The notes under the pieces were generated by a model. It had not been told where the DNA came from and did not search any database. It was given only the letters and a program-made list of their open reading frames with translations. This document shows, piece by piece, positions 1 through 3,277 of a stretch of DNA of 64,000 nt; position 1 is the first letter of the stretch, and each line of letters starts with the position of its first letter. Origin of the DNA: Bosea sp. AS-1 (lineage in GTDB: Bacteria > Pseudomonadota > Alphaproteobacteria > Rhizobiales > Beijerinckiaceae); the NCBI RefSeq assembly GCF_002220095.1, contig NZ_CP022372.1:3816501-3880500 (forward strand). The letters are read 5' to 3'. The translations under genes were made by a program, and so were the position numbers.

Positions 1-1725
1 CTCGGCATCGACCGGGCCGTGGTCGCACTGAGCAAGACCGATCTCGCCGACGCGGATCGGATCGCGGCGGTACGCCGCGAGATCGAAGCCCTGCTCGCGG
101 ACACGCCCTTCGCCGATGCGCCGATGCTGCCGGTCTCTGCCGTGAGCGGCGATGGCCTCGCGGAACTGGGCGGCCTGCTCGCGACAAAGGCGCGCCAGGC
201 GCAGGACCGGCAGGGCGATGGGGCCTTCCGCCTTGCCGTCGACCGCTGCTTCACATTGCAGGGCACCGGCACCGTCGTGACCGGCACGGTGCTTTCAGGT
301 GCGGTCTCGGTCGGCGACCATGTCGTCGTCTCCCCGTCCGGCTTGCCGGCACGCATCCGCTCGATCCACGCTCAGAACCGCCCGGCCGAGACCGGCCATG
401 CCGGCGACCGCTGCGCGCTCAATCTCGCCGGCCCCGGCATCTCCAAGGATGCGATCCGGCATGGCGACATGGTGCTGGCGCCCGTCCTGCACGCGCCGGC
501 GAGCCGGATCGACGCCGAGATCACGCTGCTCGCCTCGGAGTCGCGGCCGCTCGCCATGTGGCAACCCGTGCGGTTGCATCACGCAGCAGCCGAGGTCGGC
601 GCACGCGTCGTGCTGCTGGGCGACGAGCTCGCTCCAGGCACAACAGGACCGATCCAGCTCGTGCTCGACAGCCCGCTCGCGGCCGCGGCGCTCGACCGTT
701 TCGTGCTGCGCGACGTCTCGGCGTCACGCACCATCGGAGGCGGCCGCTTCCTCGATCTGCGCGCACCGGAGCGGCGGCGGCGCAGCCCCGAGCGACTGGC
801 GCAGCTTTCGGCACGCGGCCTTGCCGATCCCGCTGCGGCCCTCAACACCCTGCTCGCGGTGCCGCCGCACCATGTCGAGATCGACAGCTTCGCCCGCGAC
901 CGTGCCCTCGGCCTCGAGGCGGCCGATGAACTGACGCAGCGCCTCGGCCTCGTCAGGATCGGCGCCCTCGCGATGCCGTCCACGCACTGGCAGGCGCTGG
1001 CGCGGGCCGTCGGCACTACGCTCGATGCCTACCATGTCGAGCATCCCGACCTTCCCGGCATGGGGCTGGAGCGGCTGAGGCTTGCCGTCGCGCCGCGTCA
1101 ACCGGCCCCTTTGTTCCGCCAGGCTCTGGCGCGGCTGGTGGAGGACGGCACCGTAGCGACCGCCGGCTCCTGGATCAGGAGGCCGGGGCATGAGGTCAGG
1201 CTCTCTCCGGACGACGAGGCGCTCTGGACACGGATCGCGCCATTGATCGGCGGCGAGGAACGCTTCCGCCCGCCGCGCGTGCGTGACATCGGCCAGGCGC
1301 TGGACCGGCGCGAGGAGGATATCCGCCGGCTGCTCCGGCTTGTGGGCCGGCGCGGCGATGTGCTTGAGGTCGCGCTCGATCACTTCTTCCTGCGCGGGAC
1401 GTTGACCGAGATGGTCGGCATTGCAAGCGCGCTCGCCGGGCTCGCCCCGGCCGGCTTCAACGCCGCCCAGTTCCGCGACAGGCTCGACAACGGCCGAAAG
1501 GTCGCTATCCAGATTCTCGAGTTCTTCGATCGTCATGGCGTCACCATCCGCCGCGGCGATCTGAGGCGCATCAACCGGCAGCGGCTCGACCTGTTCGGGC
1601 CGCTGCCGATGATGCCCGATGGAGGAGAAGCGTCCCCGGTGGGGCGTCCGGACTTCAAATCCGGGAGGGGCCGTCAGACGGTCTCTGGTGGGTTCGACTC
1701 CCATTCTCTTCCGCCACTTCCCTGA
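1..1725 (+). CDS. selB: SelB, selenocysteine-specific translation elongation factor (5'-truncated by the window edge)
   Basis: SelB is the EF-Tu-like GTPase that brings Sec-tRNA to UGA codons marked by a SECIS element. The frame is open from base 1, so the G1-G3 GTPase motifs lie outside the window. Visible are a G4 motif of SKTD type and a G5-like SAVSGDGL, then translation-factor beta-barrel domains, then a long C-terminal region consistent with the winged-helix repeats that bind SECIS RNA. The frame has no stop before 1723-1725, so the last ~35 codons are read through the tRNA-Sec gene at 1621-1716, giving a C-terminal tail including PDFKSGRGRQ. Identification rests on family resemblance plus the linked selC and selD. 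Confidence 0.93.
   Translation, partial: LGIDRAVVALSKTDLADADRIAAVRREIEALLADTPFADAPMLPVSAVSGDGLAELGGLLATKARQAQDRQGDGAFRLAVDRCFTLQGTGTVVTGTVLSGAVSVGDHVVVSPSGLPARIRSIHAQNRPAETGHAGDRCALNLAGPGISKDAIRHGDMVLAPVLHAPASRIDAEITLLASESRPLAMWQPVRLHHAAAEVGARVVLLGDELAPGTTGPIQLVLDSPLAAAALDRFVLRDVSASRTIGGGRFLDLRAPERRRRSPERLAQLSARGLADPAAALNTLLAVPPHHVEIDSFARDRALGLEAADELTQRLGLVRIGALAMPSTHWQALARAVGTTLDAYHVEHPDLPGMGLERLRLAVAPRQPAPLFRQALARLVEDGTVATAGSWIRRPGHEVRLSPDDEALWTRIAPLIGGEERFRPPRVRDIGQALDRREEDIRRLLRLVGRRGDVLEVALDHFFLRGTLTEMVGIASALAGLAPAGFNAAQFRDRLDNGRKVAIQILEFFDRHGVTIRRGDLRRINRQRLDLFGPLPMMPDGGEASPVGRPDFKSGRGRQTVSGGFDSHSLPPLP
1621..1716 (+). tRNA. selC: tRNA-Sec (anticodon TCA)
   Basis: The 96-nt cloverleaf has the hallmarks of bacterial tRNA-Sec: an 8-bp acceptor stem (GGAGGAGA with TCTCTTCC, one G-T wobble), a long variable arm, discriminator G at 1713 and an encoded CCA at 1714-1716. 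The anticodon loop is CTTCAAA at 1653-1659, with anticodon TCA at 1655-1657 reading UGA. The T arm carries GGTTCGACTCC. The whole gene lies inside the 3' end of the selB reading frame on the same strand. Its product is charged with serine by SerRS and converted to Sec by SelA, which is not in this window. Confidence 0.97.
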
Positions 1726-1747
1726 GGAGCCATGATCGAGAGGCCGC

Positions 1748-2137
1748 GTGTCGACATCTAGAGGCAAGGCACGCGGACTCGGTACCGATTTCGACCGCTG
1801 GCTCGGCAAGCTCTTCCGCAAGGGGCCGTTCACGGCGCTGATCGTGCTGGTGAAGATCGCCGAACCGAAGGTGGAGCCGTTGCGCTCGACCTTCGTTCAT
1901 GTCATCGGCGACGAGATCGACTGGGGCGACATCGTGCTGATGCTGCGCGGCGCAGGCGTCAACTGGGACGGCGCGGCCTTCTTCCCCACCCGCGAGGGTG
2001 GTGGGCTCGTGCCGGACGAAACCGCCCGCGCTCGCCTGAGAGAACTGGAAGGCGCCCTCCGCGAAAATCGGCTGGTGCTGAACGACGGCGCCTTCTTCGA
2101 TGTCTGGGGCCGGACCCTGAAGGTCGAGGAGGCCTGA
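1748..2137 (+). CDS. Small protein of unknown function downstream of selBC
   Basis: A 129-residue protein I do not recognise. It starts with GTG at 1748, 22 nt after the selB stop, preceded by a GAGAGG-like ribosome site. An earlier ATG at 1732 closes after nine codons. It is soluble, without a signal peptide or membrane segment. The N-terminal third is basic (residues 1-27) and the middle holds an acidic/aromatic stretch (DEIDWGDIVLMLRGAGVNWD, about 54-73). Co-directional placement after selB-selC suggests co-transcription and a possible accessory role in Sec metabolism, but nothing in the sequence proves that. Confidence 0.75.
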   Translation: MSTSRGKARGLGTDFDRWLGKLFRKGPFTALIVLVKIAEPKVEPLRSTFVHVIGDEIDWGDIVLMLRGAGVNWDGAAFFPTREGGGLVPDETARARLRELEGALRENRLVLNDGAFFDVWGRTLKVEEA

Positions 2138-2149
2138 AGCGCCACCGCG

Positions 2150-3226
2150 CTAGATGACCATGACCCGCCCCGCCCCCGCCTCCACGGAGCCGATGATCCC
2201 TGCGGCCGGATAGCCCGCGGCCTTGACCTGCGCCAACAGATCCCCGGCCCGCTCTGCCTTGCAGGAGACCAGAAGGCCCCCGGAGGTCTGCGGATCGGTG
2301 AGCAGGTGGCGGCGCCAGTCGGGGAACCCGGCCGGCAGCGCGACGCCTTCGCCATAGCTCGCCCAGTTGCGGTGTGAAGCTCCGGTCACCCGGCCGGCCT
2401 CGGCAAGCCGCTGCGCCTGCGACAGAAACGGCAGATCGGCCAGATTGAGCCTCAAGGTCACCTCGGAGCCCCGCGCCATTTCCAGCCCATGGCCGAGGAT
2501 GCCGAAACCGGTGACGTCGGTGATGGCGTGGACGTCCGCATCCTTCGCGAGCTCGGCACCGATCCGGTTGAGCAGCGTCACCGACGCGATCATCTCGCCA
2601 TAGGCTTCCGGCGAAAGCTCGCCCTTCTTGAATGCCGCCGAATAGACGCCGACACCGAGCGCCTTGGTCAGGATCAGCGCATCGCCCGGTCGCGCCCCAT
2701 TGTTGCGCCGCAAGTTCTTCGGATTGAGCAGTCCGATGACGGCAAGTCCGTAGATCGGCTCCGGCGCATCGATCGAATGGCCGCCGGCAACGGGAATGCC
2801 GGCCTCGGTGCAGATCGCGGCACCCCCCTTCAGGATCTCGCGGGTCATCTCGACCGGCAGCTTGTCGAGCGGCATGCCGAGAATGGCGAGCGCCATGATC
2901 GGCTTACCGCCCATGGCGTAGACGTCGGAGATGGCGTTGGTCGCGGCAATGCGGCCGAAATCATGCGGGTCGTCGACCATCGGCATGAAGAAATCGGTCG
3001 TCGCGACCACGCAGGTCTCGTCATCGACCTGCCAGACGGCCGCATCATCGCCTGTCTCGGTGCCGACGAGGAGCTGCTTGTAGGGACCGGCTGCCGGATG
3101 CTCGGCCAGCAATTGCTGCAGCACGGAGGGGGCGAGCTTGCAGCCGCATCCCCCGCCATGGGCGAGGCTCGTCAGCCGAGGTGCCGGAGCCCGCGCGGGA
3201 GCATCGCGTTCGATCGTATCGCTCAT
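2150..3226 (-). CDS. selD: SelD, selenide, water dikinase (selenophosphate synthetase), Cys form
   Basis: SelD makes monoselenophosphate from selenide and ATP, the selenium donor for Sec-tRNA synthesis. The 358-residue product carries the N-terminal catalytic loop GGGCGCK with Cys27 and Lys30, matching Cys17/Lys20 of E. coli SelD. The first Cys codon is TGC, so this is not a selenoprotein SelD. It continues with AIRS-type ATP-binding segments such as [20 protein letters not shown] and a Gly-rich [12 protein letters not shown] chose ATG 3226 over the in-frame ATG 45 nt upstream because GGAGATGAG lies just before it. It is convergent with the small gene ending at 2137. Confidence 0.95.
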
Positions 3227-3248
3227 CGTCTCATCTCCGGAAAGCGAT

Positions 3249-3269
3249 GGCCGGGCGCCCCGCCCGGCC
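3249..3269 (-). terminator. GC-rich hairpin between the transglutaminase gene and selD
   Basis: Perfect 9-bp arms GGCCGGGCG / CGCCCGGCC flank a 3-nt loop. On the minus strand it follows the transglutaminase-like stop (3278) and precedes the selD start (3226). There is no strong U-tract, so it may be a terminator or an mRNA-stabilising hairpin. Confidence 0.5.
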
Positions 3270-3277
3270 ACTCAGTA

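Follow-up and report, generated by a model that had tools for sequence, protein, structure and literature searches.

The locus at the start of the window (the whole stretch of 64,000 nucleotides of Bosea sp. AS-1 that was analysed, to which all positions refer) raises the question of what it means for a gene encoding a translation factor to be read straight through the gene of the tRNA which that factor serves. The original prediction placed the complete tRNA-Sec gene, selC, inside the selB reading frame, and this nesting is real. selC is an intact gene of 96 nt with an encoded CCA. The Rfam model for tRNA-Sec (RF01852) matches positions 1621–1712 with 79.3 bits (gathering score 47) and is followed directly 3' by GCCA, while ARAGORN places a tRNA-Sec with anticodon TCA at 1620–1716; the gene thus combines the marks by which a bacterial tRNA-Sec is recognised, namely an RF01852 score above the gathering score, a TCA anticodon and a 3' G followed by CCA. 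The selB frame contains no stop from the first base of the window to the TGA that follows selC, and the first base of selC is also the first base of a selB codon (frame 0). The 32 codons of selC and two more before the stop encode a 34-residue SelB tail, GGEASPVGRPDFKSGRGRQTVSGGFDSHSLPPLP (GGEASP...SLPP), so that the roughly 35 codons originally predicted from selC onward correspond to 34 residues and the stop.

The identity of SelB itself was established on the full protein of 675 aa (L243:12198-14225), whose gene begins 303 bases ahead of the window's first base. TIGR00475 (selB) covers residues 1–625 with 426 bits (cut-off 242.25), the Pfam models Beta-barrel_SelB, SelB-wing_2 and SelB-wing_3 score above their cut-offs, SelB_WH_2nd_bact scores below its own (23.7, cut-off 27), and a comparison with the PDB entry 5lzb gives an E-value of 3.8e-86. 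The alignment with E. coli SelB ends at residue 521 and the last winged-helix model at residue 523 (window numbering), which places the end of the SelB fold just before the tail encoded by selC. The features of the locus are listed in the table.

Table. Features of the selB/selC locus and its downstream neighbours, in window coordinates.
Feature	Position	Strand	Remarks
selB, 3' part	1..1725	+	574 codons in window and stop; open frame, TIGR00475
Linker from last conserved SelB motif (DLF) to selC	1597..1620	+	8 codons
selC, tRNA-Sec, in frame 0 of selB	1621..1716	+	Rfam, ARAGORN
SelB tail, 34 codons (selC and two further codons)	1621..1722	+	Reading frame; predicted disordered (AlphaFold2)
Expected RNase P cut before the first base of tRNA-Sec, between two selB codons	1620..1621	+	Expected from selC start
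selB stop, TGA	1723..1725	+	Overlaps Shine-Dalgarno-like GAGGAG (1724–1729)
ORF1 remnant	1732..1761	+	9 codons; compared with relative L022, start and end kept, middle deleted
ORF2, 129 aa, uncharacterised	1748..2137	+	GTG start overlaps end of ORF1 remnant
selD, convergent	2150..3271	-	NF002098, 503 bits

The arrangement was followed through related genomes by searching whole genomes for tRNA-Sec in overlapping samples from the genus (26 of 61 genomes with a match), order (23 of 297), class (55 of 385) and phylum (52 of 398), with a further sample from the genus of G289 (19 of 119). Two of the 26 genus matches (L032 and L033) are tRNA-Ser according to ARAGORN and were left out, as were the other matches in the window's own genome (L002–L008, of which L002 is a tRNA-Ser), the loci with no selC in the stretch (L177, L191, L192 and L199, and the plasmid loci L222, L225, L229, L231, L232 and L235) and the phylum match G927, which lies outside the loci counted. 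Together with 47 named loci and plasmid stretches, this gave 216 selC loci, 203 of them distinct after removal of duplicates. The named set is not random, since similarity to the window's SelB guided its choice and one of the six search words spans the selC start. The finder used for positioning selC was compared with 186 known positions and differed at 8, of which 6 were kept from the Rfam match and 2 were corrected by the finder. SelB sequences were placed on a quick tree of 137 rows, in which 41 of the 134 inner branches are poorly supported.

selB enters selC in 76 of the 203 distinct loci, and does so in frame 0 in 75 of them. An open frame by itself was rejected as evidence of translation: in the same 76 genes, frame 0 is open in 73, frame 1 in 69 and frame 2 in 76, and because all three are open in 66 of them, an open frame in one genome proves little. 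The choice of frame is more informative, since the 61 loci in which selB stops within 150 bases before selC are distributed over the three frames as 23, 16 and 22. The one overlapping locus off frame 0, L197, is a natural exception in frame 1, entered from the second base of selC; its SelB sits on a long branch (0.99). Three of the 75 frame-0 loci stop inside selC (L036, L067 and L202). On the tree all overlaps but one, that of L067, fall in a single SelB clade (95 rows, support 100); the overlap is present in 75 of its rows and absent from 20. Within this clade, frame 0 is found in 74 of the 75 overlapping rows versus 7 of the 20 non-overlapping ones, which divide over the frames as 7, 4 and 9. 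The linker between the last conserved SelB motif and selC varies in length, by whole codons in 74 of the 75 overlapping clade rows. At least 16 whole-codon changes of linker length were counted in the clade, against one locus out of frame; assuming that one third of changes keep the frame by chance, P is 2.7e-7, although such values treat rows or changes as independent while the rows are related, and serve only as guides. The length of selC is 96 nt in all 75 overlapping clade rows and in 16 of the 20 non-overlapping ones, while outside the clade a length divisible by three occurs in 27 of the 38 near loci and in 29 of the other 63 (6 loci are not in this count).

Termination follows the same frame. 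In the 72 loci that are read past selC in frame 0, the median distance to the first stop is 4.5 codons, versus 17 and 50 codons in frames 1 and 2 of the same loci. Where selB stops just before selC, the corresponding medians are 27, 37 and 27 codons for frames 0, 1 and 2, and in the remaining loci 22, 19.5 and 24.5. Of the three frames, frame 0 reaches a stop earliest in 23 of the 24 representatives sharing less than 75% identity, versus 45 of 123 control loci. A start codon close by may offer a second possible reason for retaining the stop, as the selB TGA could be conserved as part of the Shine-Dalgarno sequence of the next ORF: in 15 of the 22 rows of the main Bosea clade it forms part of a TGAGG that is closely followed by an ATG. 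When the 73 loci that run past selC are considered (L197 included), the start of an ORF of at least 60 aa overlaps the stop in 17, and 20 others have such a start within 25 nt after it. Of the 8 representatives that have no ORF starting close to the stop, 7 terminate within 10 codons past selC. In the window itself the selB stop is free of any overlapping start codon, and the ATG of the ORF1 remnant lies 6 nt further on. Taken together, the four comparisons of frame, indels, termination and selC length make it very probable that the SelB tail is translated and its frame maintained.

Within the window's genus, selB runs into selC in 23 of the 24 tRNA-Sec loci. The remaining one (L009) has a diverged SelB (55% identity) that ends 4 bases short of selC and clusters on the SelB tree with sequences from other lineages; the divergence and the grouping suggest a horizontal replacement of the operon. 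The tightest non-overlapping form, with the selB stop directly against the first base of selC (distance 0), was observed in L149, in L183 (Brucella pseudintermedia) and in L223 (an Ensifer adhaerens plasmid).

The surroundings of the locus are those of a selenocysteine operon. In the same genome, fdoG, fdoH, fdoI, fdhE, selA, a Sel1/TPR-like ORF, selB/selC and ORF2 follow one another on the plus strand, and their spacing leads us to infer a single operon from fdo to ORF2. The fdoG gene of this run contains one in-frame TGA, so the selenocysteine system looks intact. Apart from selC, a single match in the genome exceeds the tRNA-Sec gathering score (51.9 bits); ARAGORN identifies it as a tRNA-Ser, and a second selC was therefore rejected. 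A strong match to alpha-type tmRNA (305 bits) is present in the genome. A promoter of its own for selC was likewise set aside, as a scan of positions 1200–2200 for sigma-70-like promoters returned no site, which is weak evidence because the scan did not cover other promoter types. The same region holds one terminator-like site (1368–1381), about what shuffled sequences give (mean 0.6). In several Bosea relatives ORF1 lies between selC and ORF2; in L023 and L027 it is 155 aa long and its start overlaps the selB stop, and its remnant in the window may be a candidate coupling mini-ORF. ORF2 gave no match in Pfam or NCBIfam, and a homologue is found downstream of selC in 38 of the 203 loci, the window's own included.

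The simplest reading of this gene order is that the selB mRNA and the pre-tRNA-Sec would be one RNA. This part of the original prediction agrees with the shared strand, the single frame and the operon-like order, with cotranscription itself inferred from them. Ribosomes translating selB would then read on across selC, always in the one frame, and terminate shortly behind it. To finish SelB, a ribosome would have to unfold selC, while RNase P would need it folded. Whenever selC is free of ribosomes it could fold, and RNase P could then cut between positions 1620 and 1621, on a codon boundary. It was correctly predicted that a cut at the 5' end of selC would remove the selB stop, which lies downstream of it. 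Such a cut would free the tRNA-Sec and leave a selB message ending on a sense codon, on which stalled ribosomes could be cleared by tmRNA. Each transcript would thus yield SelB only until its tRNA is released, keeping SelB low relative to its tRNA. A need for balance of this kind is described in E. coli, where according to a passage of PMC3834832 (citing Tormay 1996) the ratio of mRNA, SelB and tRNA has to be maintained. That a shared selB/selC RNA, a translated tail and RNase P cleavage together produce a nonstop message limiting SelB seems to us about equally likely to be right or wrong. The broader proposal, in which selection keeps a self-limiting dual-use RNA in phase and the release of tRNA-Sec, together with ribosome rescue, sets the supply of SelB throughout this clade of alphaproteobacterial selenocysteine operons, is more tentative and would be a rather doubtful generalisation at present.

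What the tail does once translated bears on this reading. One alternative is that the peptide is functional in itself, for instance in binding RNA or the ribosome, with its amino acids under selection. The peptide is very similar across the clade and its frame is kept, as such a function would lead one to expect, but this similarity already follows from the tRNA. Synonymous changes make up a fraction of 0.287 of selC changes in frame 0 of overlapping loci versus 0.276 in other selC genes (only genes of 96 nt, 75 and 74 sequences, respectively); the two being alike, it is the tRNA, and not the amino acids, that seems to determine the sequence of the tail, and selection on the peptide in its own right was rejected on this negative test. 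In addition, 20 of the 95 clade rows have no tail, and the selB tail on Sinorhizobium meliloti pSymA keeps only the first half of the peptide encoded by selC, after which it diverges. An AlphaFold2 model built with 26 aligned SelB sequences also predicts the tail to be disordered: pLDDT is below 50 at residues 537–574, and nowhere else does it stay below that value for three residues or more. A functional peptide therefore appears improbable to us. Still less credible is a decoding of the UGA behind selC as selenocysteine, which would make SelB a longer selenoprotein. The window does have TGA at this place, but among the 72 loci whose frame 0 continues past selC the stop is TGA in 50, TAG in 15 and TAA in 7, and in the window the next in-frame stop comes after only 11 codons; the mixture of stop codons among relatives led to the rejection of this reading of the UGA at 1723.

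The serious rival to regulatory coupling is a harmless inherited overlap, to which we would give somewhat less than an even chance. An ancestor would have lost its selB stop, the tail would be translated but inert and have no regulatory role, and the frame would persist for no other reason than the harm done by the longer tails of the other frames. The lack of amino-acid selection in selC and the modelled disorder fit this explanation, as does the longer run of frames 1 and 2 past selC. So does the history of the overlap, which, if it was ancestral in the clade and never regained, has been lost at least 9 times (plain parsimony on the whole SelB tree gives 11 changes, with gain and loss indistinguishable). 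With at least 9 such losses, and with 20 of the 95 clade SelB stopping before selC, any coupling would be dispensable. Against an inert overlap stands the observation that a stop before selC would relieve any cost, and yet 75 of the 95 rows keep the overlap. The linkers of three loss-free clades, which were chosen afterwards, also contain no nonsense codon where 5.7 would be expected, a shortfall that seemed significant, but a rough scaling to the whole clade predicts 5 to 42 losses under neutrality, a range that includes the nine; given the post hoc choice of clades and the rough scaling, the count proves nothing either way. The comparison of SelB C-termini with selC across relatives thus came out divided, with overlap in most rows of the clade and a stop before selC in the rest. 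A coupling of SelB synthesis to tRNA-Sec maturation, as originally suggested, finds agreement in the common strand and frame, the operon-like order and the presence of tmRNA, while the relatives that lack the overlap speak against its being needed. Judged from these sequence comparisons, regulatory coupling of SelB to tRNA-Sec release remains plausible.

Both the arrangement and the nonstop-mRNA idea have been known since 2021, and the window is a further instance. Mukai described a whole tRNA-Sec nested in the selB ORF in diverse Alphaproteobacteria, in what the author called the first report of a tRNA gene nested in a bacterial protein ORF, together with partial and reversed selB/selC overlaps elsewhere, losses in some lineages and the S. 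meliloti remnant (PMC8124441). It was proposed there, with no wet-lab work, that processing of the tRNA turns the selB mRNA into a nonstop message and represses SelB (PMC8124441). The nesting is repeated in a passage of a 2022 review (PMC9312934), the reference list of a 2026 review includes the 2021 paper (PMC13188914), and no experimental test of the nested selB-selC was found among the open-licence papers listed. The window resembles Mukai's cases in having an entire same-strand tRNA-Sec in the selB frame, an extension that opens with Gly (GGA) and whose tRNA part ends with Pro (CCA), a selC of 96 nt (the tRNA length there is a multiple of three in most cases) and a linked fdoGHI-selABC cluster (PMC8124441). 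It differs in its selB stop, which is clear of the next start; an overlap of the two is seen there "in many cases" and is not strictly defining. Bosea, Microvirga and Mesorhizobium are absent from the main text of PMC8124441, and the window can be taken as a Bosea-type instance. Relative to that text, the frame, stop-distance, loss-count and synonymous tests are new, and on their strength the case for a translated frame appears better here than before. A tRNA-Lys within cox1 of the Armadillidium mitochondrion (per PMC8124441) is likewise enclosed completely by a coding sequence and points the same way, but in a compact animal mitochondrial genome and, in our reading, with products that are not partners.

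SelB of E. coli is reportedly autoregulated through its binding to a SECIS-like element in mRNA. This resembles the model considered here in holding SelB low relative to its partners, and differs from it in relying on a SelB-bound SECIS-like element and involving no excision of a tRNA. The E. coli autoregulation is named in PMC8124441, citing Thanbichler and Bock 2002.

Two RefSeq plasmid records, from Phyllobacterium zundukense (L218, 2501–4258) and Terrarubrum flagellatum (L220, 2501–4246), have an overlapped selB with no listed protein and two locus tags skipped (the gene table used is incomplete by design), and a Roseomonas selB (L222, a stretch with no selC) does have a listed protein. 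The overlap may make annotation pipelines drop selB, and in that sense it may be an annotation trap; the two plasmid records are those examined in which the overlap comes with a full gene table. If the coupling is real, the locus would embody a regulatory principle in which release of an RNA's non-coding product uses up the message it came from, linking an elongation factor to the one tRNA that it serves. With no regulatory role at all, it would still be a rare bacterial case of a full tRNA that is also translated as a frame-constrained coding sequence.
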